A stretch of DNA of 64,000 bases. It comes from a virus. The stretch lies in IMG/VR virus record IMGVR_UViG_3300019360_000002, positions 19,536-83,535 of that record. The stretch is one strand, 5' to 3'. Every line of letters begins with the position of its first letter. Position 1 is the first letter of the stretch. The translations under genes were made by a program, and so were the position numbers. Below the pieces are notes generated by a model, which saw nothing but the letters and a program-made list of their open reading frames with translations, did no database searches and was not told the origin of the DNA. Below, in pieces: positions 8,868 through 61,610 of the stretch.

Positions 8868-8896
8868 TTGACACGTCCCTGCCGCCCTGGCAGGCT
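8868..8896 (+). promoter_or_regulatory. Putative promoter TTGACA-N17-CAGGCT
   Basis: Consensus -35 TTGACA at 8868-8873, 17-base spacer, -10 CAGGCT at 8891-8896, matching the TANNCT-type -10 of other promoters here. Transcription would start near 8903, leaving a roughly 85-base leader before ATG 8989. The leader contains a strong hairpin, GCACC-TTCG-GGTGC (8941-8954). Confidence 0.5.
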
Positions 8897-11354: not shown

Positions 11355-11383
11355 TTGACACACAACAAATTTTTGTTTAGCCT
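11355..11383 (+). promoter_or_regulatory. Promoter with operator in spacer, leaderless output
   Basis: TTGACA (11355-11360), 17-base spacer, TAGCCT (11378-11383). The spacer holds the palindrome-like AACAAATTTTTGTT (11364-11377). The ATG at 11391 lies 7 bases after the -10, where transcription should start, so the mRNA is predicted leaderless. The operator resembles that in front of the HTH gene at 42978. Confidence 0.65.
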
Positions 11384-11390
11384 GCTCCCC

Positions 11391-11651
11391 ATGCCGTGGA
11401 GCAGGATCGTCAAGACCGAGGCGCTGTCCATCGACCTCGCCATGCACCAACTACGCGGAAAGCTTAGGGAAATGCGCAACGAGGCCGAAGCGGGCGTCCG
11501 TGGGGACGACGGCCTTACTGATTACAACCACGACTTCCCCCGCCGCTTCATCGCGCGCCTCATGCGCGTCGAGTTCGGCATCGACCTGGGCGACCCGCAC
11601 GACGAGAGTCGCTACCCGGTTTGGGTGTGGGAGATCACGGGCTGCCAGTAA
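11391..11651 (+). CDS. Small hypothetical protein, leaderless
   Basis: 86 residues from ATG 11391; earlier in-frame codons overlap the promoter and are unlikely starts. Sequence is helical and charged, ending YPVWVWEITGCQ. No ribosome binding site precedes it, in keeping with a leaderless transcript. No family recognised. Confidence 0.55.
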   Translation: MPWSRIVKTEALSIDLAMHQLRGKLREMRNEAEAGVRGDDGLTDYNHDFPRRFIARLMRVEFGIDLGDPHDESRYPVWVWEITGCQ

Positions 11652-15165: not shown

Positions 15166-15332
15166 TGAACACGTCCAAGGTCTTGCCAAAGTTGCCGATT
15201 CCCTACGCTGGCATCGAGAAGTTCCACCTGCATCTCGACAAGTGCCAGCAGTGCCGTGAGCATCCGTTCGCCCTGTGCCTAGAGGGCTCCAAGCTCCTGC
15301 ACGACACGATGAAGCCGGCGTCCGCTCCCTGA
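15165..15332 (+). CDS. Small CxxC protein
   Basis: 55 residues, ATG in TGATG overlap with the upstream gene. Contains DKCQQCREHPFALC, a three-cysteine plus histidine arrangement that could bind one metal ion. Its TGA lies next to the operator of the following promoter. Confidence 0.5.
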   Translation: MNTSKVLPKLPIPYAGIEKFHLHLDKCQQCREHPFALCLEGSKLLHDTMKPASAP

Positions 15333-15372
15333 CAAATTTTTGTTGTCACCTGCCTCCGGCCTGTGGTAGGCT
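15332..15372 (+). promoter_or_regulatory. Promoter with ACAAATTTTTGT operator, leaderless output
   Basis: Operator ACAAATTTTTGT at 15332-15343, embedded in a wider GACAA...TTGTC symmetry, overlaps the -35 TTGTCA (15343-15348). An 18-base spacer leads to TAGGCT (15367-15372). ATG 15380 is 7 bases past the -10, so the transcript should begin at or next to the start codon. Confidence 0.6.
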
Positions 15373-21784: not shown

Positions 21785-21948
21785 CCGACCATCGCAAGCT
21801 ACAGCTCTATGCCACAGCCACGCGCCTGTCCAACATCTATGTGGATGCCGATCATGCAGGCAACAAGGCGCTGGCGGATCGCGCGCACCGCATCAAGTGG
21901 AAGATCTGGAATCGTGTGTCTCAGTGGCCTTCTGGCAACAAAAAATAA
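21781..21948 (+). CDS. Small hypothetical protein
   Basis: 55 residues from ATG in ATGA overlap to TAA at 21946-21948. Basic, helical, with HRIKWKIWNRV near the end. Unknown function. The next promoter begins immediately after its stop. Confidence 0.45.
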   Translation: MTDHRKLQLYATATRLSNIYVDADHAGNKALADRAHRIKWKIWNRVSQWPSGNKK

Positions 21949-21977
21949 TTGACAAGCCTTACGAGTCTCGGTACGCT
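21949..21977 (+). promoter_or_regulatory. Promoter TTGACA-N17-TACGCT
   Basis: -35 TTGACA at 21949-21954 directly after a TAA, 17-base spacer, -10 TACGCT at 21972-21977. Expected start near 21984, then GGAGG ahead of ATG 22000. Unlike the leaderless promoters it lacks an ACAAA operator, so it is probably under different control. Confidence 0.6.
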
Positions 21978-22836: not shown

Positions 22837-23408
22837 ACGCGACCCAGCGGAAGCAAGCCCGCAAGCAGAAGCGCCTCATCAATCTCGGTCGCGATGCGGC
22901 CGTCCACATCGCGGCGGCCGAGGCCGGCGCACAGCACGCCCTCGATCTGCTCGCGAACCGGGACGCGGTGCTGTCCGCGACCCTGGGCAAGGCCAAGACC
23001 CTCGAAGAAGCGGTCATGCTCGCGCGCGTGGAGGCGACCAAGGTCCAGGCCGCTCGCGACGAGGAAACCCGGCAGCACCGAGTGGAGCTGGCGGCCCTGG
23101 AGGACGCGCACAAGCTCACCATGGCCACCACGGTGTTCGAGATGGAACAAAAGCACGAGCGCAAGAGGTTCGAGATAAACGGGCACTGGATCGCGGACCA
23201 ATGCCAATACGAAACAACAATCCAAAACCTCCGGCTGAGAATGGACGAGCTGGAGGAAAAAGCCGAAGAGCCGGCCAAGCTGCGCAGGCGCCTGGCCGAG
23301 AAGCAGAAGCACATCGAAGAGCTTCAGACCGAGGTCTCGCAGCTCAAGTTGCGAGTCGCACCCGAGTCCGTACACGTGCCCTTCATCAACAGGAGGAAGG
23401 CCCAATGA
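22833..23408 (+). CDS. Long coiled-coil protein
   Basis: 191 residues, ATG in ATGA overlap, GGAGGGG upstream. Basic first 20 residues, then helical throughout, with clear heptads in 60-120 and 130-175 (Glu/Lys/Leu/Gln). Likely a structural or scaffold protein. A one-mismatch palindrome lies at 23349-23361. Confidence 0.55.
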   Translation: MNATQRKQARKQKRLINLGRDAAVHIAAAEAGAQHALDLLANRDAVLSATLGKAKTLEEAVMLARVEATKVQAARDEETRQHRVELAALEDAHKLTMATTVFEMEQKHERKRFEINGHWIADQCQYETTIQNLRLRMDELEEKAEEPAKLRRRLAEKQKHIEELQTEVSQLKLRVAPESVHVPFINRRKAQ

Positions 23409-23680
23409 ATTTCGGACAAGCGATCGAAGAGGCCAAGGCGGGCAAGCGGATCCAACGCGCTGGCTGGAACGGCAAAAACATGTGGGTGGCGCTGGTGCCA
23501 GGAGCAGACCTCCGAAAACACCAGTGGGTGTACGAGCACTGCGACGGCTTCAACAGCCCGAGTCCCGACACCAAGGTGTTGCCGTTCTTCGTGATGTACA
23601 CGGCCCAGGGCGCGATCCTGCCGGGCTGGTTGGCGTCGCAGACCGACATGACCGCGGAGGATTGGGAGGTGGTGCTGTGA
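23405..23680 (+). CDS. Tad2-like (DUF2829) protein, candidate Thoeris inhibitor
   Basis: 91 residues with GGAGG upstream. The pattern MNFGQAIEEAKAGK, RAGWNGKNMWVALVPG, LPFFVMYTAQG and SQTDMTAEDWEVV matches the DUF2829 family almost along its length. Family members called Tad2 bind the cyclic ADP-ribose signal of Thoeris and block abortive defence. Binding residues cannot be verified here, and not all DUF2829 proteins are proven inhibitors. Located in a run of small accessory genes, as expected for an early counter-defence gene. Confidence 0.78.
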   Translation: MNFGQAIEEAKAGKRIQRAGWNGKNMWVALVPGADLRKHQWVYEHCDGFNSPSPDTKVLPFFVMYTAQGAILPGWLASQTDMTAEDWEVVL

Positions 23681-31533: not shown

Positions 31534-31539
31534 GGCGAA

Positions 31540-31581
31540 ACAGTGCCAAATGCGGGTGGGGCGGTCAACAAATATTTGTTG
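31540..31581 (-). promoter_or_regulatory. Leftward promoter with CAACAAATATTTGTTG operator
   Basis: Minus-strand TTGACC (31568-31563), 17-base spacer, CACTGT (31545-31540), then six bases to GTG 31533, so a leaderless transcript is predicted. A perfect 16-bp palindrome CAACAAATATTTGTTG (31566-31581) overlaps the -35. This is the most symmetric version of the ACAAA/TTTGT operator in the window. Confidence 0.6.
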
Positions 31582-31638
31582 TAAAAGGATTTATTTTTTA
31601 GAGAGGTCGCAACCCTACACACGACAGAGGCAACGCTA

Positions 31639-31814
31639 CACCAATTGTAATGGCGCCTAGAGTTTTGACCGTTTTTTGATGAAAACATTTGAATTTCTCA
31701 AGTGGTCATACCACTAATTGATCAGGCGCCAAATGCGTCCGATCAATTAGTGGTCAGACCACTAACTTAAATAGCGACAAAAGTCGGTTTCTCTAGCCGA
31801 CATTACAATTGGTG
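31639..31814. other. Nested inverted repeats, candidate replication origin
   Basis: Outer arms 31639-31662 and 31791-31814 are 24 bases long with two mismatches (core CACCAATTGTAATG / CATTACAATTGGTG). Inner arms 31701-31723 and 31741-31763 are 23 bases with two mismatches around a 17-base centre; each inner arm is itself palindromic (AGTGGT-N3-ACCACT). The surrounding 31534-32189 has no credible gene, is AT-rich, and separates leftward from rightward transcription next to the primase-helicase. AATTGATC recurs at 31951. Confidence 0.6.
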
Positions 31815-32094
31815 CCGGGTTGTCTGGTTTTTGCGCGGGGTTGACGCCCGCCGTTTTGCCCAGGTGTTTCGCCTGTTTAAGTCCGTGCGTAGGGTTTTGG
31901 GGTGTTTTTAACTATATGCGAGAAATATGCGTTAATTGGAAAACGACGGAAATTGATCGGCTACCCGAAATTAGCGTTTTTTGGGGGTATTTCATTTCTC
32001 GCGCGCCTTGAATTAAAGTGAAATATTTGTATGAGTTTAGAAGGCCCCTTAACCCTGCACAGCGATTACCTTACCTGGCAAAAAATCGAATTTC

Positions 32095-32124
32095 TTGACC
32101 TCTGACTACAGCATGGCGTAGATC
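32095..32124 (+). promoter_or_regulatory. Putative promoter for replication genes
   Basis: TTGACC (32095-32100), 18-base spacer and TAGATC (32119-32124) lead to ATG 32190 of the primase-helicase gene, with a leader of about 60 bases and GGGAG before the ATG. Moderate match only. Confidence 0.4.
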
Positions 32125-32189
32125 ATCAGCCCTCGGGTAGTTTGACCATCAGACGACCTCTGGCGTGGGGGTCGCGAAAGGGAGCGGGG

Positions 32190-34973
32190 ATGCTCGATGA
32201 GGCGCGCAGCTTCTTCAAGCTGCTATGGCCAGACACGTCGCTCGTGGACCACCTTCGCGTCACGCTGTGGCGGCTACCCGATCGAGCCAGCCTCCACGTC
32301 CCGCCGTCGAGCGTCCTGGATGCCCTCCAGGGCTTCGCCACCCTGCCGGTGGCCACCGGGACGTTCGACAAGCCCTACGAGCCCGCCAGCGGGCCGCCAG
32401 GCACGCACGCGATGTATTACGGGGTCGGGCTGCGCCGGCCTGATCTACCGCCGACCAGCCGAGGTCTCGACGACGATGTGACGGCCTGGCCGGGAGTCTG
32501 GGTCGACCTCGACTACGGCACAGAGGGGCACGCAGGTGAAAACTACCCGCCTACCGATAGGGAAGCGCTGGAAATTGCAGATAAATTTCCTGCGCCTCCA
32601 ACACTGACCGTGCAGTCAGGTCACGGTTTTCACTTGTACTGGTTGTTCGACAAGCCGCTGGTCGGGGACAGCAAGAAGTTTTCTAGTCTTATTAAAGGGT
32701 TACAGAAGAAGTTTCGGGAGCTTGCTGCGCCCTTTTCAGTCGACAAGACGGACGACGTAGGCCGTGTGCTCGGCATCCCTGGCCTTTGGAACTGCAAGAA
32801 GCTGGTCCCGCCCGTGCGAGTCGCAATTTTGCTTGACGACGGACCGCGCTACAAGATAACAGACCTGGAAGCTTTTCGCGGACGCCCCGGACGCCCGCTC
32901 AAATCCCCGCCGCCCGCCGCCACCGGTCAAGCCGTTCAAGGGCCGCCACCCTTAGACAGCGGAATTAAGACCGGTGGCGGTGCCGGCTCTTCTGCAAAAC
33001 GTGGCCGCCCCGCCAACGTCGACAAGTGGCCGGCGTGGGTGCTGGGCGTGCGTCGCCGCGTCAAGAACACGACCGACGCCGAGAAGAAGCGCCGAGCTGA
33101 GCTACTCATCGATGGCGAGCCGTTCGCCGAGTCGGGCGAGCGGAATAACACTTGCAACAGCATGGTGGGGCTGCTCACGAACTACGTGTTCAAGGAGAAG
33201 CCGCAAGCGACAGCCGAGGAGGTCTACGACACCTTCTTCTCCGCCGCCATCATCAAGATGGCGCTTCTAGAAGACGACCCGTCGAACCCGGCTCTGCAAA
33301 AGGACGAGGTGCTCGGCCAGATCTCACGCATGTGGGAACTCGTGCTCGAAGAGGACGCGCGTGCCAAGGAGCAGGCCAAGCGGTTCGCCGACGCGCTTCG
33401 GCGTGGCGCGCTTCGGCGCAAGGGCGGAGGCGGAGGAGGCAACGGAAGTAACGGTCACGCGAACGGCAACGGTCACGCGAACGGTCACGGTGAACCGGAA
33501 CCGGGCGGTAGTTCCACCCAGGCGCTTGTGGTGCGCGAATCCGAGCCTGAGATAGGCGAGTACGACACGCCTGATGGGTTGCCGCCCGTGCCTCCGCCGC
33601 AGAGCCACGACGCGTTCGGCGAAGATCCGCTGGAGCTGCTCATCATCCAGTACGAGGATGCCTACTTTGTCTGGCGCGATGAGCAATACAAGGCTCCGGT
33701 GTCGAGTAAAGCCCTGGAGACGAGCCTACGTCGTGACCTCGCCTACGCAGACGGCGTGACGTGGTACTACGAGAACGACAAGGGGGTCGAGAAGCGAAAG
33801 ACCCTCCAGCAGTTCAAGAACGACTACTGCACAGTGGCGCGGCACCTCGTCTTCGATCTCACCAATCCGAACACCGAGTACGACCCGGACTCGGAGACGC
33901 TGTTCGTGGCCGCAGCGCCACTGCGTGACCTGGAGCCGACGTTCAACGAGCACATCCACGAGTGGCTCACGCTCTTCGGGGGAGACGGCGCCGATCGCCT
34001 GATCGATTGGATTGCCACCATCACGGATCTCTCCTATCAAAGCTGCGCTCTTTACGCCTCCGGGCACTCGCGTACGGGTAAGTCGCTCCTCGCCCAAGGG
34101 CTTGCCAAGCTGTGGAGCGCACACGGAGAGCCGACCGCGCTCAAAAATGTGTTGGAGAACTTCAATGCGGACCTGCTTCGCTGCCCGCTCATCCACGCCG
34201 ACGAAGCGCTTCCGTACGGAACCCACACCACCGACTTGCGCGAGATGATTGGCTCGTCGAGCCGTACCGTCACGCAGAAGTATTTGCCGAATGCCACTTT
34301 GCGGGGCGCAATTCGCATGGTGCTCACTGCCAATAACCACGACATGCTGGCGACCGGCGACGAGCATCGAGGCCCGCAGGACGTAGAAGCGGTCGCGGAG
34401 CGGTTTTTACACATCACGCCGCCCGCGTCGGCAGGGAAATTTTTGGCCGAGCTGGGCGGCAAGGCAGGTAAGACAAAAGACTGGGTGGATGGGGACCTAA
34501 TCGCCCGTCACGCGCTCTGGTTGCGGGACCACAAGCGGATCGGGTTTGTCCCCGGCACACGTTTCATCGTGGAGGGCACCAAGACCGAGGTGCACCGCGC
34601 ACTCGTCATGTCTGGTCCCGTGTCGTCGCTGGTCCTTGAGTGGCTCGCCAAGTTTTTGAACAAGCCGCTCGCGGGAGTCATCAAGCAAGGGCTCGTGCTC
34701 TGGGGTAACGGTGAGCTGCTCGTCAACACCTCGGCCATCACCGACCACTGGGAGCACTTCATCAATTCTCACCCGGTGTACTCGACCACGCGCATCGGCA
34801 CCGCTCTCCGCTCCATCGCACGCGGGCTGAGGCGAGGGGACGGTCCGCACCGGAACAAAAACTTCTGGATCGTCGACCCGATGTACGTGATCGACTGGGC
34901 GCAGCAGAACAACATCGGCGACGTGGACGCGATGTGGACCAGCATCAACACCGCCAAGCCGGTTCTCAACTGA
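32190..34973 (+). CDS. Primase-helicase (primase-like N-terminus, SF3 helicase)
   Basis: 927 residues from ATG 32190, chosen for AAAGGGAGCGGGG upstream. N-terminal part has VWVDLDYG (~103) and SGHGFHLYWLFDKP (~142), typical of RepB-like/archaeo-eukaryotic primase-polymerase domains. A low-complexity Gly/Asn/His linker spans about 414-445. The C-terminal part is a D5/SF3 helicase: Walker A GHSRTGKSLLAQ (~625), Walker B region LIHADEAL (~666) and LTANNHDM (~710). Combines primer synthesis and unwinding at the fork, downstream of the candidate origin. Confidence 0.87.
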   Translation: MLDEARSFFKLLWPDTSLVDHLRVTLWRLPDRASLHVPPSSVLDALQGFATLPVATGTFDKPYEPASGPPGTHAMYYGVGLRRPDLPPTSRGLDDDVTAWPGVWVDLDYGTEGHAGENYPPTDREALEIADKFPAPPTLTVQSGHGFHLYWLFDKPLVGDSKKFSSLIKGLQKKFRELAAPFSVDKTDDVGRVLGIPGLWNCKKLVPPVRVAILLDDGPRYKITDLEAFRGRPGRPLKSPPPAATGQAVQGPPPLDSGIKTGGGAGSSAKRGRPANVDKWPAWVLGVRRRVKNTTDAEKKRRAELLIDGEPFAESGERNNTCNSMVGLLTNYVFKEKPQATAEEVYDTFFSAAIIKMALLEDDPSNPALQKDEVLGQISRMWELVLEEDARAKEQAKRFADALRRGALRRKGGGGGGNGSNGHANGNGHANGHGEPEPGGSSTQALVVRESEPEIGEYDTPDGLPPVPPPQSHDAFGEDPLELLIIQYEDAYFVWRDEQYKAPVSSKALETSLRRDLAYADGVTWYYENDKGVEKRKTLQQFKNDYCTVARHLVFDLTNPNTEYDPDSETLFVAAAPLRDLEPTFNEHIHEWLTLFGGDGADRLIDWIATITDLSYQSCALYASGHSRTGKSLLAQGLAKLWSAHGEPTALKNVLENFNADLLRCPLIHADEALPYGTHTTDLREMIGSSSRTVTQKYLPNATLRGAIRMVLTANNHDMLATGDEHRGPQDVEAVAERFLHITPPASAGKFLAELGGKAGKTKDWVDGDLIARHALWLRDHKRIGFVPGTRFIVEGTKTEVHRALVMSGPVSSLVLEWLAKFLNKPLAGVIKQGLVLWGNGELLVNTSAITDHWEHFINSHPVYSTTRIGTALRSIARGLRRGDGPHRNKNFWIVDPMYVIDWAQQNNIGDVDAMWTSINTAKPVLN

Positions 34974-34983
34974 AAAATTTTTG

Positions 34984-35015
34984 TTGACAATGCTGCTTGG
35001 CATACGGCTAAATAA
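34984..35015 (+). promoter_or_regulatory. Promoter with ATTTTTGTT element
   Basis: TTGACA (34984-34989) directly after AAAAATTTTTGTT and a TAAAT-type -10 about 18-19 bases on (near 35008-35013). It starts just after the primase-helicase stop and would drive the RecB-like gene. No strong ribosome binding site before ATG 35034, so the leader is short. Confidence 0.45.
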
Positions 35016-35033: not shown

Positions 35034-36566
35034 ATGGCGATTCTTAAAACGTCGGCTTCGCAGGTCGAAGCTTTCATCCGCTGCAACCGTTATTGGTACA
35101 ACAAAAGCGTGTTGAAGTTGCCAGAGCCTTTTTCGCCGGCCGCCGCCAAGGGCTCGCGCGTGCACAGCATAAGCGAATACTGGTTAAAGTCCGGCCTTCT
35201 CTCACAACCGCCAGGCGCTACTGACGAGGACACGGAGATCGCGCAGGCAGCTATTGCCACCATGCCCGCGCGTGGGCCGGAGCTGCTTATCGAACACGAG
35301 TTCGAGATTCCGACGTACGAAGGTGGCCCAATGTGGCTAGGCTACATCGACCTTGTTGATCCTCGTGGCGATCTGGTTCACGTGCTTGACCACAAGACGC
35401 GTAGTGATTTTCGCTACTGCCTTAAGCCCGAAGACCTTTTGAAATCGATTCAAATGATTTCATACGCCAAGTGGGCAATGGATTATTTCGTTAAAGAGGC
35501 GGTGTTGATTGGCCACAAATACGTGTGCACCAAACGAACTGCCAAACCGCCTTACTACAAAACGATGCTTGTGACAGCGGTTGCGAATCGCAAACAGGTG
35601 GACAAGGTGTGGGCGAATCTCATGCCGGTCATTCGTGAAATGATGGCTTGGCGTGAGAGAAACCCCAAGACCGCAGACGATCTTTCGCCCAATACGGCAG
35701 CGTGTGGCATGTACGGAGGGTGCGCGTACAGGCCGCAGTGTGGATTCTCACCGGCACTCGGCACGTTCTCCATTCGAAAGACGAAGACCATGAGCGACAC
35801 GCCCACTGCGCCCGTGAATGGAACCACCCCGCGTCCGATGTCCCTCTCCGAGAAGCTCGCCGCCAAGAAGGCGGCAGCCGCCGCAGCCGCGCCGCCGGCT
35901 ACCACGGCCCCGGCCGCAGGAGCGCCCGCTGTCGGCCTCGTGCCGCCGGACGCGCCGCCCAACCTGCCGGCAGGCCAGCCGCCCGAGGACGCCAAGCCCG
36001 AGGAGAAGAAGACCAAGGCGAAGAAGGGCTCGGCCGCGCGTGACGCGATTTTGGCGGCGGCCGGCGGCGAGCCCGAGAGCGGGACCCTGCCGGGCGTGTC
36101 GACGACGCCGCCTCCGGCGAAGCCGGATCTGGGGCGTGTGGCCGAGGAGAGCACGGCCTCGCAGTTCAAGGGAGTGAAGGAGGAGGCAGAGCGCAAGGCG
36201 CTCGTCGCCGAGAACGCCGCCGCGCCTGGCGCCGAGACGGCTCCGTCCGCCCCCGTCAAGGCCGTCGCGACCAAGAAGCGCCTCTCCATTTTTGTCGATT
36301 GCCTACCTGTGAAAGGAGGCGGCAGCTTCACCTTGTTCGAGGACTGGGCCGCGCCGCTCTTCGCCCACGTGGCCGAGGGCCTCGGCCTCTCCGACTACCG
36401 CCTGGCGCAGTTCGCCTCGTGGAAGCCTCACTTCGCCAACGCCGTGCGCGAGAGCCTAGACACGCTGCCGGAGGTGCTGGTGATGTCGAGCTACGGCCCC
36501 GGCGTGCAGGAGGCCCTCGACGCGCTCACGCCCCACGCCACCTTGATCGTCAAGAAGCTGGGGTAG
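35034..36566 (+). CDS. RecB/Cas4-like nuclease fused to a C-terminal domain
   Basis: 510 residues. Residues 1-240 are a PD-(D/E)XK nuclease: SQVEAFIRC, GSRVHSISEYW, IEHEF, LGYIDLVD...VLDHKTR (D and DxK catalytic set) and a terminal CGMYGGCAYRPQCGF iron-sulfur-type cysteine cluster with the first Cys near residue 12-20. Residues 245-400 are a low-complexity Ala/Pro/Lys linker. The last 110 form a separate folded domain of unknown type (LSIFVDCLPVKGG to LIVKKLG). Acts in DNA end processing or recombination beside the polymerase and helicases. Confidence 0.75.
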   Translation: MAILKTSASQVEAFIRCNRYWYNKSVLKLPEPFSPAAAKGSRVHSISEYWLKSGLLSQPPGATDEDTEIAQAAIATMPARGPELLIEHEFEIPTYEGGPMWLGYIDLVDPRGDLVHVLDHKTRSDFRYCLKPEDLLKSIQMISYAKWAMDYFVKEAVLIGHKYVCTKRTAKPPYYKTMLVTAVANRKQVDKVWANLMPVIREMMAWRERNPKTADDLSPNTAACGMYGGCAYRPQCGFSPALGTFSIRKTKTMSDTPTAPVNGTTPRPMSLSEKLAAKKAAAAAAAPPATTAPAAGAPAVGLVPPDAPPNLPAGQPPEDAKPEEKKTKAKKGSAARDAILAAAGGEPESGTLPGVSTTPPPAKPDLGRVAEESTASQFKGVKEEAERKALVAENAAAPGAETAPSAPVKAVATKKRLSIFVDCLPVKGGGSFTLFEDWAAPLFAHVAEGLGLSDYRLAQFASWKPHFANAVRESLDTLPEVLVMSSYGPGVQEALDALTPHATLIVKKLG

Positions 36567-41938: not shown

Positions 41939-41984
41939 GTTTTACTTCGTAAAACCTGGAAGCACGTGCCTTAGTTCACGTGCT
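41939..41984. terminator. Hairpins between convergent genes
   Basis: GTTTTAC-TTC-GTAAAAC (41939-41955) and AGCACGTG-N8-CACGTGCT (41961-41984) lie between the polymerase stop and the resolvase stop; the second overlaps the resolvase stop codon. Suited to ending transcription from both sides, although U-tracts are weak. The gap 41854-41970 also holds a one-mismatch palindrome (41862-41874). Confidence 0.5.
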
Positions 41985-42519
41985 TGTCGGACAGCCGATC
42001 CATCGACCGCTCCGGGCTTGCGCTTCGCAATTTATGACGGTGCAGGTACCATAGCCCGATGCCGATGGCGTCGAAGATGTTCTCGTTCTGCTTGGCGCTC
42101 TGCACCAGCATCACGTTGTCCATCTCCCTCGGCTTCAGATCCGCCAGGCAGCGGTTCTTGGTCACGATCTTCTTGACCTGGCCCTTCCACTCGGCGGGCA
42201 GGATGAACAGCTTTTCCTTCACCGGAGCCAAGGAGGCGTAGCGCTCCATGATGGCCCCGGCCACCGCCGCCACCGCGATGAGGTCGTTCGGGTCGCCTTT
42301 GGACTTGTCGACGCCGTACACCTGCGGTAGTTCTATGACCACGGCCGCGTACTCGTAGCCGCCTATGAACGCCGCGCAAGAAACATCGACCACCGACTGG
42401 GCCAAGTTCTTCTCGGTGTTCTTGACGAGATGGGCGCGACGCAGGTAGTAGCGGTTCTGGTGGTGGTCCCACACCGCTACCCCCGTGAACCGCACGCCCG
42501 GGTCGATGGTGACGATCAC
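41971..42519 (-). CDS. RuvC-like Holliday junction resolvase
   Basis: 182 residues. RNase H-fold acidic residues are visible: TIDPGVRFTG (Asp, ~6), AVVIELPQVYG (Glu, ~62) and NENIFDAIGIGLW (Asp, ~150). Lysine-rich region 95-125 would contact DNA. It resolves recombination or replication junctions before packaging. Perfect palindrome (42018-42030) near the 3' end. Confidence 0.82.
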   Translation of the reverse strand: MIVTIDPGVRFTGVAVWDHHQNRYYLRRAHLVKNTEKNLAQSVVDVSCAAFIGGYEYAAVVIELPQVYGVDKSKGDPNDLIAVAAVAGAIMERYASLAPVKEKLFILPAEWKGQVKKIVTKNRCLADLKPREMDNVMLVQSAKQNENIFDAIGIGLWYLHRHKLRSASPERSMDRLSDKHVN

Positions 42520-42746
42520 TTGACCGGCCTCCGCACGAGCACCGTGCGTTCAGTGGTGCGTGTGCGACCCTCTGTAAGTTCGATGACCTCTTGGGCGTAA
42601 CCGGCGCGCTTGTAGCTGGCAGCCGATTCTTGAAGGTATTTTGCAATAACCTCCATTTTCTTCTCGTCTTTGATTACAAGATCCCCCTCTTGCGTATCTC
42701 CGGGGGCGATGAAGCGGTACTCGACTACGCCGTGAAGTTTCAGCAT
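42516..42746 (-). CDS. Small hypothetical protein
   Basis: 76 residues, ATG near the preceding stop and stop overlapping the resolvase ATG, so co-translated with both neighbours. Charged, helical centre (KKMEVIAKYLQESAASYKR). Unknown function. Confidence 0.5.
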   Translation of the reverse strand: MLKLHGVVEYRFIAPGDTQEGDLVIKDEKKMEVIAKYLQESAASYKRAGYAQEVIELTEGRTRTTERTVLVRRPVK

Positions 42747-42747
42747 G

Positions 42748-42978
42748 TCACGCCGCCGTCTTCCACGGCTTGATCTTCTTCTTCACCACCTTCCAGTCCG
42801 GCCACGACTGAAGGGAAACCTTGCCGTCGGTCCATACCTCGATCACCGCCGCCAGGTGCAGGCTCGGGGTGCAGCTCTTGGCCACGAGCATGTGAACGTA
42901 CGCCTTGGTCTTGCCGAGAGCCTTGGCGGCGGTCTCGGCGTCGATCTCGTTTTCTTTGAGGAAACCCTCGAAGTCCAT
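42748..42978 (-). CDS. Small HTH (Cro/YdaS-like) regulator, leaderless
   Basis: 76 residues. MDFEGFLKENEIDAETAAKALGKTKAYVHMLVAKSCTPSLHLAAVIE fits a Cro-type helix-turn-helix (about 14-40), followed by a basic Trp/Lys tail. First gene of a three-gene leftward unit, transcribed from a promoter whose spacer holds an AACAA...TTGTT palindrome, so autoregulation is likely. Best candidate to bind the ACAAATTTTTGT sites elsewhere. Confidence 0.65.
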   Translation of the reverse strand: MDFEGFLKENEIDAETAAKALGKTKAYVHMLVAKSCTPSLHLAAVIEVWTDGKVSLQSWPDWKVVKKKIKPWKTAA

Positions 42979-42984
42979 GCTTAT

Positions 42985-43013
42985 GAGGTAAACAATTTTT
43001 TGTTGCTTGTCAA
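42985..43013 (-). promoter_or_regulatory. Autoregulated leaderless promoter of the HTH gene
   Basis: Minus-strand TTGACA (43013-43008), 17-base spacer, TACCTC (42990-42985), then six bases to ATG 42978. The spacer contains AACAATTTTTTGTT (42991-43004, plus strand). Same geometry as the 11355 promoter. Confidence 0.65.
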
Positions 43014-51531: not shown

Positions 51532-52125
51532 GTCGGTTTCGTCCCTTTCCGCTGGGGTCAACATCCTCGCCCCGGGCTATGCGCTCGATGATGTCGGAAC
51601 TTCTTCCCCGTTCCGCTGGGGTTGTCACCTGCTTGTTGGGACGCATGCGAATCCTCCCGTCTGCGTGTCGGAACTTCTTCCCCGTTCCGCGGTGGTTGTC
51701 ACGCGGCCAAGCAGCCTCATGCGCTTCCGGTCCACGTAGTCGGAACTTCTTCCCCGTTCCGCGGGGGTTGTCACGGCGCCGATGTTTGCCACGGCTGTCG
51801 GAACCTCTTCCCCGTTCCGCGGGGGTTGTCATCCGCTGCCTGCCACGAGTCACCTCTACAGCTTGACGGTCGGAACTTCTTCCCCGTTCCGCGGGGGTTG
51901 TCACCCGGTTGTCGTTGATGTAGATCTGGCACTTCAAGATCAGGTCGGAACTTATTCCCCGTTCCGCTGGGGTTGTCACAGGACTGTCCGTCATCATTGA
52001 TGGATGGTTTCCGTCGTCGGAACTTCTTCCCCGTTCCGCGGGGGTTGTCACCTGCGAACCCTTGCTCGCGTGGGCGTGCTACCGACCGAGTCGGAACTTC
52101 TTCCCCGTTCCGCGGGGGTTGTCAC
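51532..52125 (-). CRISPR. Type V CRISPR array, 8 repeats plus degenerate end
   Basis: Eight 36-base repeats at 51593, 51667, 51739, 51797, 51869, 51944, 52016 and 52090 (starts), with a decayed ninth at 51532-51564. Spacers are 36-39 bases except one of 22 (51775-51796). Read on the minus strand each repeat starts GTGACAACC and ends GGAAGAAGTTCCGAC. GGAA/TTCC forms a 3' hairpin, and the two substitutions there (copies at 51797 and 51944) fall in its loop, so the stem is preserved, as expected for a crRNA handle. The decayed repeat lies farthest from the cas gene, indicating transcription from the cas side. No cas1 or cas2. Confidence 0.95.
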
Positions 52126-53717
52126 GGCGCATCCTGATTCGCCTTGGCGGGTGCGGAGTTAATGCGGCGCTTGCGAGCGCCATCGCGCATCCGCTCCTGC
52201 CGCGCCGATAAGCCTGCGGATCCATTACCGGCGTCCGGGTCCAGCACGTGCGCGCTCGCGCTCGCTAGCAAGTTCGTGCCTGCCTGTTCGTCCTGGTCGG
52301 TCGCGACGCCGCAGCTCTGGCAGGTGAGCATGAGCTGGCGGCGCTCATCGTCCTTCCAGTCGTTTACATGCCCGCACTGGCAGCAGCGCAGTGTGGTGTC
52401 GGCGGCGGGGGCGTCGAGCACGATACAGCCGTGCGTGGCCTGGCGCAGCGTGGACACCAGCTCGCCGGGCGCGGCCCAGCGCTGGAGGATGCGCTCGTGG
52501 TGACGAGACGGCGCCTCGCCGTCGCGCTTCTCTCCGAACGTCGTCAGGCCGCTGTCATCCTCGACGGCGATCACCTCGTAGCGCCGTGTCCAGGTTGCGG
52601 CGAGTTGCCGGAATTGCTCCTGACGGATGTGCTGTGCGCGCCTTCGGTGCTCGGCCGCCTGGCGCACCGCCGAGCGCCACATGAGCGCGGCGGCAGGGGC
52701 AGTGCCCTCCGTCTTGAGTCTTGCAACCAGCGAAAGGAGGCGCTCTCGCTTGCGAGGCCACGCTATCTCGGGGTGATCGGCGCGCAGCGCGTTCTGGAGG
52801 TCATCGGCTTCGCCGTCGAGCCCAGCGGCGCGGGTGTAGAGCGTTTCGACGCGCGGATCGAGCCGCACCTCCTCCTGTCGTCCCGCCGAGTCGACGAGGT
52901 AGGCGAGGCGTACGCCGCCGTCGGGAAGCCTGCGCCAGCCCACGTCGAGGCCGGCACGGTCGCGCGATCCAGTTGACGCCCGATCCAGTCCCCGATCCGC
53001 TGGGGTCTCGCACACAAACTGCACGGTCCAGCGCACGAGTGGACCAACGGGCACACGCTTCGCCACCACCCACTTCACTACCGCGCCCTCGGCGATCGGC
53101 CGGTGGTAGCGGATCTGGAAGCGCGCGAAGATGGGTTCGCGGCCTTCAGACCCGATACGCAGGAGGGCGTCGGCCAAACAGCGACCTGCGCCACCGCCAT
53201 ACTTCTTGTCGCTGACCGCGAGGCGTACGCGCGTGTCTTCTCCGAGCAACTCCGTTACGGAGGCCCCGTTCTGGAGCTGGACGGCGATCAGGCCGCTGCG
53301 GTCCCAGCGACGAAAGGACGGACGCGGGCTCCGGCTCGCCTGCTCAGCCGCCTTTTCGACTTGGAGGTACGTTCCCCAGTACACACCACACACGGCACGC
53401 GCTCGCCGGATGATGTCTCGGTAGCGTTCGTTGATGGTCATGAGCACACTCTTCGCCGGTCCCGCTGCGGCGCGCTTTCGCGCTTCACGAACCATCTTCC
53501 AGGCGGCGTCTTTGTCGGCATGAGGCGCGTCGGGCGGGAGACTGAGCGCCGTGGCCCGTTCGTCGACGCTGTGCTCATCGAGAGTGTTAGAGACGGCACC
53601 GAAGCGAGCGCGCGCCATCTCCACGAGGAGGTTGTAGTAGCGGTGCGCCCGCCACAACTGGTCCTCGACATCACGCTCGTGATCCATGAGCCGCGCGCCG
53701 TACTTGTACACGATCAT
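52122..53717 (-). CDS. Compact Cas12 nuclease (Cas12m-like, type V)
   Basis: 531 residues. RuvC-I Asp258 in AGLDVGWR, RuvC-II Glu386 in IAVEDDSGL, RuvC-III Asp476 in DQDEQAGTNLL, and a zinc ribbon with Cys445/448 and Cys466/469 just before it. N-terminal half is the helical/wedge region; WDRSGLIAVQLQNG (138-151) closely resembles Cas12m. Size suits a V-U1/Cas12m effector, whose characterised members bind target DNA without cutting because a RuvC acid is lost; here all three acids remain. The stop codon lies in the first CRISPR repeat. A TnpB transposase is less likely given the array and N-terminal match. Confidence 0.88.
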   Translation of the reverse strand: MIVYKYGARLMDHERDVEDQLWRAHRYYNLLVEMARARFGAVSNTLDEHSVDERATALSLPPDAPHADKDAAWKMVREARKRAAAGPAKSVLMTINERYRDIIRRARAVCGVYWGTYLQVEKAAEQASRSPRPSFRRWDRSGLIAVQLQNGASVTELLGEDTRVRLAVSDKKYGGGAGRCLADALLRIGSEGREPIFARFQIRYHRPIAEGAVVKWVVAKRVPVGPLVRWTVQFVCETPADRGLDRASTGSRDRAGLDVGWRRLPDGGVRLAYLVDSAGRQEEVRLDPRVETLYTRAAGLDGEADDLQNALRADHPEIAWPRKRERLLSLVARLKTEGTAPAAALMWRSAVRQAAEHRRRAQHIRQEQFRQLAATWTRRYEVIAVEDDSGLTTFGEKRDGEAPSRHHERILQRWAAPGELVSTLRQATHGCIVLDAPAADTTLRCCQCGHVNDWKDDERRQLMLTCQSCGVATDQDEQAGTNLLASASAHVLDPDAGNGSAGLSARQERMRDGARKRRINSAPAKANQDAP

Positions 53718-55470: not shown

Positions 55471-56457
55471 CTACTCGGCGGCCTTCTTGCCCTTCTTGCC
55501 CTTCTTGCCGCCCTCGCCGGCCGCCCACTCCTTCGCCTTGGCCGCCGCCTCCTTCGCCTTCTCCTTGGCGTTGGCCTCGGCCGCCTTCACGAAGTCCTTC
55601 CAGTCCGAGCCCATGCGGCCGAGCGCGATGGAGCCCTGGGCGAAGCGCAGGGTGTCGAACACGCCCTGCACGTAGTCGGTGCGCTTGACCTCCTTCTCGT
55701 CGGTCTCGTCGACGATCTGGACCATGGCCTTCAGGATCTTCGTCCCCGGGCGGTCCGACTTGCCCGCCTTCGCCTTGGCGGCCTTGCGTGCCTTCGACTT
55801 GCCCGACCGGCCGCCCGAAGCGATCGCCTTGAGCGCCTCGTCGACGCCCTCCTCCTGCGTGTCGAAGTCGTACTTGCCGGGCTTGTCGTCCTCGCCCTCG
55901 ACCCACTTGGCGGTCTTGGCCAGGGTTTCCACCGTGTCATCGGCGAGCTTGCCCGACTTCCACGCCTTCTTGAGCGCCGGGCCGCACTTCTCCAGGGCGT
56001 CGAGCTTGCGCGACACCCAGGTCTCCGACTTGTGGAGCGCCTTGGCGATGGTCTTCTGGTTGTCGCCCATGAGCTTCAGCTCGGCGCACTGCACCGCGAT
56101 CTCGTACGAGGAGAGCGCGTCGCGCAGGATGTTGTCGGCGAGGGCGTTGTAGCGCGCGTCCTTGAGCGTGTCGCCGGAGACGAAGTGGCACGGCACGCCC
56201 TGGGAGAAGCCGTTGGCGCGGCCTTCCTCGATGAGCAGGGTGATCGCGGCCTCGCGGCGGAAGCCGCCCACGAGCACCATGATCTCCTCGCCGTCCTTCT
56301 GCGTCTTCCACACCTGGAGCGGGTTCAGAAGCCCCCGCGCCTCGATGTCGTCGGCGAGGTTCTTGATGTCCTCCAGCTTCTCGCGCGGGTTCTTGAAGCC
56401 GACCTCCTCGCCAGGGGTCAGCTCGTCGAGCTTGATGGTGTCGTAGTTTGAATCCAT
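55471..56457 (-). CDS. ParB/KorB-like DNA-binding protein
   Basis: 328 residues from ATG 56457 with GGAGGACG upstream. ParB-type nucleotide-binding part: RGLLNPLQVW (41-50), VLVGGFRREAA (61-71), ADNILRDALSSYEIA (107-121, cf. EN.xR..L...E.A), then an HTH at about 132-155. The lysine- and alanine-rich C-terminus differs from chromosomal ParB. KorB-type proteins bind 13-bp palindromes scattered over a replicon and both segregate DNA and silence genes; a 13-bp palindrome lies just upstream of this start. Candidate reader of the TTGCG-N3-CGCAA sites. Confidence 0.8.
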   Translation of the reverse strand: MDSNYDTIKLDELTPGEEVGFKNPREKLEDIKNLADDIEARGLLNPLQVWKTQKDGEEIMVLVGGFRREAAITLLIEEGRANGFSQGVPCHFVSGDTLKDARYNALADNILRDALSSYEIAVQCAELKLMGDNQKTIAKALHKSETWVSRKLDALEKCGPALKKAWKSGKLADDTVETLAKTAKWVEGEDDKPGKYDFDTQEEGVDEALKAIASGGRSGKSKARKAAKAKAGKSDRPGTKILKAMVQIVDETDEKEVKRTDYVQGVFDTLRFAQGSIALGRMGSDWKDFVKAAEANAKEKAKEAAAKAKEWAAGEGGKKGKKGKKAAE

Positions 56458-58517: not shown

Positions 58518-58592
58518 GTCGTCCTCCTGGTTGGTGCCTGATCCGTTGTTGATACTACTTGCGAGTCACAAGCTAGGCAAGAAAAATTTGTT

Positions 58593-58627
58593 GGCCGCGT
58601 GTCGATCATCGCTTCGAGGTGGCACTG
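58593..58627. repeat. 35-bp direct repeat, left copy
   Basis: Identical over 35 bases to 59642-59676, starting GGCCGCGTGTCGATC. It lies in the gap 58518-58648, which also holds a one-mismatch palindrome (58559-58571). The right copy is coding (end of the lipoprotein gene), so this copy is a duplicated fragment. Confidence 0.8.
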
Positions 58628-58648: not shown

Positions 58649-59584
58649 TCATGTTGCCTCGCCGTACACCCAGTCAACGTCATCGCCGAACCGGTCCATC
58701 GCCCACTTCTCGATCCAGTCGGCGGCGATGCGCGCCATCGCGTGGTTGGCGGGCGTGTAGCCCGGGCGGATGGCGAGGAACCATCGCTCGGCGAGACGAT
58801 CTGGCCGCTTCGGCAGCCCGCTGAGATCGACGGTGGCGCAACCTCGCGCCTTCGACAGCGTGCCGACTAGGCAGGCGCACTCGCCGTCGTAGACGGAGCC
58901 GTCGACTTTTCCTTCGTGCAGCGCGGCGAGCAGGGCCGGCGCCTCGTCGGGCGCGAGGTCGAGCACCTGCCACAGATCCTCGCGGACGCCCTCCAGGTTC
59001 GCGCCCTCCAGGTTCGCGCCCTCCAGGTTCGCGCCCTCCAGGTTCGCGCCCTCCAGGTGCGCGCCCTCCAGGTTCGCGCCCTCCAGGTGCGCGCCCTCCA
59101 GGTTCGCGCCCTCCAGGTGCGCGCCCTCCAGGTTCGCGCCCCGCAGGTTCGCGCCCAGCAGGTCCGCGCCCCGCAGGTTCGCGCCCCACAGGTTCACGTC
59201 CTGCAGGTCCGCGCCCGACAGGTTCACGTCCTGCAGGTCCGCGCCCGACAGGTTCGCGCCCTCCAGGTTCGCGCCCTCCAGGTTCGCGCCCGACAGGTTC
59301 GCGCCCGACAGGTTCGCGCCCGACAGGTTCGCGTCCTGCAGGTCCGCGCCCGACAGGTCCGCGCCCGACAGGTCCGCGCCCGACAGGTTCGCGCCCGACA
59401 GGTCCGCGCCCGACAGGTTCGCGCCCCGCAGGTTCGCGCCCCACAGGTCCGCGCCCGACAGGTTCGCGCCCTTCCCGCGCGCTTTCTCGACGGCGCTGCG
59501 CAGCGGATTCGGGTCGTCGTCGGCGGCCTCGTAGGAGTAGAGGCACGCGTTGTCCCAGAGCCGGCGAATCTTAATCTTGGCCAT
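58649..59584 (-). CDS. Pentapeptide-repeat protein
   Basis: 311 residues, GGAGGACAAC upstream of ATG 59584. Residues about 38-205 consist of over 30 A(N/D)LxG pentapeptides (GANLSGADL, GANLEGAHL), giving a right-handed beta-helix of the MfpA/Qnr type. A 105-residue C-terminal domain (from EDLWQVLDL) with CACLVGT and a Trp-rich end follows. Some such proteins mimic DNA and block gyrase or other DNA-binding enzymes; that is possible but unproven here. The 15-base DNA periodicity makes copy-number changes likely. Confidence 0.85.
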   Translation of the reverse strand: MAKIKIRRLWDNACLYSYEAADDDPNPLRSAVEKARGKGANLSGADLWGANLRGANLSGADLSGANLSGADLSGADLSGADLQDANLSGANLSGANLSGANLEGANLEGANLSGADLQDVNLSGADLQDVNLWGANLRGADLLGANLRGANLEGAHLEGANLEGAHLEGANLEGAHLEGANLEGANLEGANLEGANLEGVREDLWQVLDLAPDEAPALLAALHEGKVDGSVYDGECACLVGTLSKARGCATVDLSGLPKRPDRLAERWFLAIRPGYTPANHAMARIAADWIEKWAMDRFGDDVDWVYGEAT

Positions 59585-61582: not shown

Positions 61583-61610
61583 AGTCTACCAGGCAACAAA
61601 AATTTGTCTA
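61583..61610 (-). promoter_or_regulatory. Promoter with ACAAATTTTTGT operator
   Basis: Minus strand TAGACA (61610-61605) with 16 bases to TAGACT (61588-61583). The spacer begins AATTTTTGTTGCC, so the ACAAATTTTTGT operator covers the -35 and spacer. The -35 overlaps the stop of the upstream gene. Drives the zinc-finger gene at 61560, which has a normal ribosome binding site. Confidence 0.5.

Follow-up and report, generated by a model that had tools for sequence, protein, structure and literature searches.

A palindromic operator at dispersed promoters of an uncultured virus and a putative autoregulated XRE/Cro-type repressor

The HTH gene and its operon

The DNA analysed here (the window) comprises bases 19536-83535 of an 83,535-bp IMG/VR virus record, which may be a fragment; the rest of this record is referred to as L008. 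Genes were called with a simple script based on codon usage, and gene starts are approximate. Three adjacent genes on the minus strand form a predicted operon. The first of these, gene 91 (42748-42978), encodes a 76-aa XRE/Cro-type helix-turn-helix (HTH) protein that is proposed to be a repressor. It is followed by gene 90 (42516-42746, minus strand), a gene call for a second 76-aa protein, and then by gene 89 (41971-42519, minus strand), which was identified by sequence match as a RuvC-like Holliday junction resolvase.

The assignment of gene 91 as an HTH protein, probably of a divergent XRE/Cro type, is well supported by a PHROG profile, an ortholog and structure prediction taken together. 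Gene 91 matched the transcriptional-repressor family phrog_35 weakly (E = 0.0011) and had no Pfam match itself, falling below the HTH_3 (PF01381) cut-off. A homolog was recovered (phmmer E = 2.4e-6, 36% identical) from L130, the locus with the closest PolA relative (42%), and this homolog passed HTH_3 (24.2 bits against a cut-off of 23). The gene order of HTH, small ORF and RuvC is common to L130 and this virus, and a tyrosine-recombinase-like ORF was recognised by eye on the L130 contig as well. An AF2 model of gene 91, built from a two-row alignment, contained helices at residues 3-9, 14-21, 25-33 and 40-49 plus a beta hairpin (core pLDDT ~70-80), which gives moderate support for a helical HTH bundle fold. 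Most top Foldseek neighbours of this model in the PDB and viral sets were XRE regulators, each a weak hit (E 0.1-1), and they included SinR, DdrO, the lambda and P22 repressors, N15 Cro and HigA.

Within its 76 residues gene 91 has no further domain, and the C-terminal dimerisation/autocleavage domain of the lambda CI type is absent. Peptide-pattern or tblastn searches of viral contigs, phages and GTDB genome contigs returned no close relatives of the HTH protein. Across the record, gene 110 (55471-56457, minus strand), a ParB/KorB-like protein with an HTH, was the only further repressor-type HTH protein recognised; no DNA-binding domain was recognised in gene 77, a 66-aa WYL-only protein.

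A palindrome at promoters

The 12-mer ACAAANNTTTGT, allowing at most one mismatch, was found at 7 sites in the 64-kb window (0.69 expected), and none of the dinucleotide shuffles of the window reached 7. Copies of ACAAATTTTTGT or a one-mismatch variant lie at 11365, 15332, 31568, 34973, 42992, 58580 and 61596. When the flanks of these copies were considered across the whole record, the 12-mer lengthened into a 16-bp palindrome, CAACAAANNTTTGTTG. A full-genome motif search, which the initial annotation had put forward as a check, recovered CAACAAANNTTTGTTG at 12/14 or better 7 times in the 83.5-kb record against 0.05-0.15 expected under Markov models of order 1-4.

As the initial choice of motif had been made by eye, a de novo palindrome search was also run in the intergenic gaps only. 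Its top 14-mer family was AACAAATTTTTGTT, which occurred in 6 gaps, whereas the null reached at most 4; this margin is modest alone, and the placement test is stronger. For that test, a site counted if it lay in a gap and no more than 75 bp ahead of a gene start, as 4.8% of positions do. All of the 12-mers (7/7) were in gaps and preceded a gene read in the same direction by 13-62 bp (p ~6e-10). De novo palindrome clustering of the whole genome without composition correction returned GC-rich words only.

That the eye had singled out A/T-rich palindromes arisen by chance, in gaps that are A/T-richer than genes, is scarcely credible, since chance was refuted statistically by the dinucleotide shuffles, the Markov models, the gap-only shuffles and the placement test alike. 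Neither is the element common away from promoters: a single 12/14 match, CAACAAAAGCGTGTTG (35099-35114, no strand assigned), is intragenic. It lies inside gene 84, 128 bp past the 34971 site, and may be an auxiliary operator or a chance occurrence. Read from the sequence, the real element is a 16-bp palindrome at sigma-70-like promoters that either overlaps the -35 hexamer or fills a 17-bp spacer. The promoter elements are predictions from consensus sequences.

In two promoters the palindrome lies in the spacer. The operator CAACAAATTTTTGTTT (11363-11378, plus strand) occupies the 17-bp spacer of TTGACA(11355)-N17-TAGCCT and heads gene 45 (ATG 11391), while CAACAAAAAATTGTTT (42990-43005, minus strand) occupies that of TTGACA-N17-TACCTC, the promoter of the HTH gene itself, 13 bp before the HTH start. 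The two share one register (TTGACA-N17-TA, palindrome centre +15.5 from the -35 start), exactly as had been claimed from the first inspection. The 42990 promoter was absent from the automatic scan, its -10 TACCTC fitting the consensus at 2 positions only; its alignment with the 11363 promoter is exact.

In three further promoters the -35 hexamer begins with the final TTG of the palindrome, whose centre lies 5.5 bp upstream of the hexamer start, near -41.5. These are TGACAAATTTTTGTTG (15330-15345, plus strand; TTGTCA-N18-TAGGCT), heading genes 53-62 with the integrase gene 58; the degenerate CAACAAAAAATAATTG (21936-21951, plus strand; TTGACA-N17-TACGCT), a weak site at 11/14, heading genes 67-72 with a Tad2 protein in gene 71; and CAACAAATTTTTCTTG (58578-58593, minus strand; TTGCCT-N17-TAGTAT), heading gene 114 and those that follow, including gene 110. 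Reading of the sequence also placed the centre near -41.5, with weak -10 elements, at TGAAAAATTTTTGTTG (34971-34986, plus strand; 11/14), which overlaps TTGACA and heads genes 84-88, and at the perfect copy CAACAAATATTTGTTG (31566-31581, minus strand; TTGACC), which lies at the edge of an AT-rich gap and heads the leftward block of genes 82-73. Lastly, AGACAAATTTTTGTTG (61594-61609, minus strand) lies across and covers the -35 of TAGACA-N16-TAGACT and heads genes 122-115.

The initial annotation had listed ACAAA/TTTGT elements in or next to promoters at 11355, 15332, 31540, 34984, 42985 and 61583. All six proved real, with coordinates shifted by up to 30 bp; the listed values are promoter positions, and the sites assigned to 31540 and 61583 are really at 31566 and 61594. 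The site at 58578 had been missed, and the degenerate site at 21936 was also found here.

At four of these promoters (11363, 15330, 31566 and 42990) the -10 element lies only 6-7 nt ahead of the start codon (starts at 11391, 15380, 31533 and 42978), and these promoters, that of the HTH gene included, are predicted to give leaderless mRNAs. The operator promoters have near-consensus -35 hexamers and spacers of 16-18 bp; therefore no activator should be needed, and a bound element would occlude polymerase. One point counts against repression throughout, namely that at up to five promoters the centre of the site falls near -41.5, which activators use as well. The HTH protein might thus be a dual regulator that activates promoters of this layout (15330, 21936, 58578 and, by reading, 34971 and 31566) and represses those with a filled spacer (11363 and 42990), its own among them. 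Lambda CI is both an activator and a repressor. Such a division is nevertheless distinctly unlikely here, as most promoters of the -41.5 type have good -35 hexamers and 17-18 bp spacers with no apparent activator dependence, and the TTG common to palindrome and -35 may be simple sequence economy.

The element is A/T-rich and adjoins -35 boxes, so it was also considered as the operator of a host regulator or as an UP-like element setting promoter strength, rather than as part of a phage-specific regulon. This is very unlikely, given that it is palindromic and is also found inside spacers, a location in which UP elements do not function, and that promoter-like sequences elsewhere in the record (e.g., TTGACA-N17-CAGGCT at 8869) carry no good copy.

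Gene content of the operator-headed blocks

Each block is probably one transcript, judging by strand and spacing, with internal promoters possible in some blocks, which hold long gaps. Genes 45-52 include a dCTP deaminase (PF22769), and genes 53-62 a tyrosine integrase (phrog_1, 1e-28). The block of genes 67-72 encodes a Tad2-like protein (window 23405-23680, plus strand; PF11195, 1.8e-25), a member of a family that inhibits Thoeris defence. The leftward block 82-73 contains a TSCPD protein (PF12637, 5.7e-6) and ThyX, together with matches to a nucleoside deoxyribosyltransferase, a Nudix hydrolase and a DNA methyltransferase (members scanned together; genes 81, 80 and 76 by eye). Genes 84-88 encode a PD-(D/E)XK/RecB-like nuclease (PF12705, 1.6e-13), a helicase and PolA; genes 91-89 the HTH protein and the RuvC-like resolvase; and the leftward block from gene 114 a phrog_1362 protein and the ParB/KorB-like gene 110. 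Block 122-115 has operator 61594 at its head. Separately, a pentapeptide-repeat protein (window 58649-59584, minus strand; 1e-64) shares 49% identity with another from the related locus L136.

Two stretches, the initial 30.8 kb of the record and window 43.2-58.5 kb, were free of sites scoring 11/14 or higher; peptidases, endolysins and probable virion proteins are encoded in these blocks. The operators are confined to non-structural blocks. Since the sites head these blocks and none occurs in the virion/lysis blocks, the content of the regulon is early/metabolic and not mixed. One element thus recurs at several scattered promoters, that of the regulator gene included, and a dispersed-operator regulon with the HTH, TSCPD and PD-(D/E)XK/RecB-like nuclease genes among its members is strongly supported by the sequence. 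A small regulon with the TSCPD and RecB-like genes had been envisaged initially; both belong to it, and it is larger than envisaged, with about eight promoters and the integrase, PolA, RuvC, Tad2 and ParB/KorB-like blocks.

Several other features of the record were observed. Five probable virion or lysis genes (9, 94, 97, 99 and 102; L008:8087-9046 and window 43.2-51.5 kb) encode proteins that by eye end in a short hydrophobic tail, which suggests membrane anchoring. Gene 8 (L008:6616-8076, plus strand) has an intein-containing look and gene 19 (L008:14456-15127, plus strand) is LAGLIDADG-like, both by eye, and HNH endonuclease matches were found in several other genes. A virus-encoded CRISPR array (window 51592-52130) has 8 copies of the 36-nt repeat GTCGGAACTTCTTCCCCGTTCCGCGGGGGTTGTCAC, mostly 72-75 nt apart. 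It is abutted by gene 105 (52122-53717, minus strand; 531 aa), which has a Cas12f1-like TNB domain (7e-6) and whose sole match in the phage collection was Virus Rctr197k (29.6% over 93%). Together, array and gene resemble a phage-borne compact type V CRISPR system.

A second palindrome, TTGCGANTCGCAA, has 44 copies within one mismatch in the whole record (0 expected), distributed over both genes and gaps (e.g., window 28964, 35581, 61409, 62614 and 63646). It was essentially absent from related viruses, and two Myxococcota genomes held no exact copy; its spread resembles that of the cyanobacterial highly iterated palindromes.

The operator was also sought in relatives. It was not enriched in 57 PolA-related viral loci and so looks private to this virus, as is expected because repressor specificities turn over fast. 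Two candidates were rejected. The first was an L130 operator, a palindrome (TAAGAAAATCTTA) 4 bp before the HTH start, which is not rare and has only one further partial site (11260). The second was a regulon in other contigs with the 11355 layout, for which there were three hits, two of them A/T-rich, with at most one good site per contig. The PolA-RuvC module has two relatives, L198 and L199, in a Myxococcaceae MAG and a Corallococcus praedator contig, which is a hint of Myxococcota as hosts of the virus clade and says nothing on this virus.

Proposed circuit and related systems

The gene 91 protein is probably an autoregulated XRE/Cro-type repressor of about eight dispersed promoters, acting through the palindrome. 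We infer that it binds the element, forms dimers and represses; a palindromic site suits a dimeric HTH protein. In the proposed mechanism, the protein would bind the 16-bp palindrome CAACAAANNTTTGTTG (duplex CAACAAATTTTTGTTG) as a dimer, cover the -35 or the -35/-10 spacer, and so block RNA polymerase at the roughly eight early/metabolic promoters. With the HTH promoter among the targets, negative feedback would set the level of the gene 91 protein. The repressor would be Cro/CI-like, except that its operators are spread across the genome and not gathered in a single immunity region.

Its role may be either that of a lysogeny/immunity repressor or that of a Cro-like factor shutting off early genes. 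Lysogeny is plausible because an integrase gene is present, and the coverage of nearly all non-structural blocks also favours a lysogeny repressor. The small size, the lack of a cleavable domain and the predicted co-transcription with a recombination gene favour a Cro-like factor.

The strongest rival binder is the gene 110 protein, an alternative candidate encoded within the regulon itself, downstream of operator 58578. It matches ParB-like phrog_1033 (3e-18) and, just under the cut-off, the KorB domain PF08535 (2.6e-4). Its rank as rival follows because KorB-type proteins are global repressors that act on many promoters from scattered palindromes (PMC11790492); gene 110 could then bind the palindrome like RK2 KorB, with the HTH protein otherwise employed. 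We consider this unlikely, since the operator sits in the HTH gene's own promoter and not immediately before gene 110, and a ParB-type site is available elsewhere. The AT-rich gap at window 31534-32189 (656 bp, 47% GC, nested inverted repeats), which adjoins the primase/polymerase-like gene 83 and is likely a replication origin, holds a palindrome pair, AGTGGTCNNACCACT (31701-31763, no strand assigned; copies at 31701 and 31749). These are its sole copies in the record, and the pair is a candidate origin or ParB/KorB site. The pair would be a more natural site for gene 110 than the operator palindrome. It is conceivable, at a low probability, that both proteins take part in a viral KorA/KorB-like silencing in which the operator-bound HTH protein would capture a sliding gene 110 clamp loaded at AGTGGTCNNACCACT near the putative origin and early genes would be silenced at long range.

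Repression by the gene 91 protein from dispersed operators has several parallels. The repressor of Streptomyces phage phiC31 acts at dispersed, conserved inverted-repeat operators at early promoters; the dispersed inverted repeats are alike here, but repressor and sequence differ. Lambdoid Cro/CI and P2/186-type systems share a small XRE HTH protein, palindromic operators on the -35 or spacer, and the autoregulation proposed here. Their operators cluster in one switch region, however, whereas here they extend over ~50 kb and the protein has no cleavable C-terminal domain.

In the large temperate phage SPbeta of Bacillus subtilis, one phage repressor, MrpR, acts through a short element, SPBRE, in about ten scattered promoter regions (PMC10516654). 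The present virus likewise has a short repeated element at promoters scattered over the genome, but MrpR has a tyrosine-recombinase fold and SPBRE is a 15-bp motif, unlike the predicted HTH fold of this 76-aa XRE/Cro-type protein and its 16-bp palindrome. The immunity repressor of cluster A mycobacteriophages (L5/TipsytheTRex) has operators/stoperators dispersed genome-wide in promoter regions and gaps, as here (PMC9283540). Each such genome has more than 20 sites, asymmetric 13-mers oriented with transcription, and the repressor binds them as a 183-aa two-domain monomer (PMC9283540), whereas the present sites are palindromic, about eight in number and all at promoters. As repressor fold or site symmetry differs, the regulon belongs to neither the MrpR/SPBRE nor the cluster A system.

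Plasmid RK2 has dispersed palindromic KorA/KorB operators at core promoter elements and a KorA-KorB interaction (PMC11790492). It resembles this virus in combining dispersed palindromic operators, a small HTH protein and a ParB/KorB-like protein in one genome; in RK2 the interaction and the sites are known, whereas here the likeness of gene 110 to ParB/KorB comes from its sequence. The proposed circuit is of a familiar kind with a new sequence.

Most genes of this divergent uncultured virus are without names, and these results provide a testable, sequence-based regulatory map for it in which one operator sequence marks the non-structural blocks and points to a likely master repressor. The ParB/KorB-like protein encoded alongside the regulon offers a way to test plasmid-style silencing in a virus. 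Few phage regulons with dispersed operators are known, and this palindromic, XRE-type case would join them.
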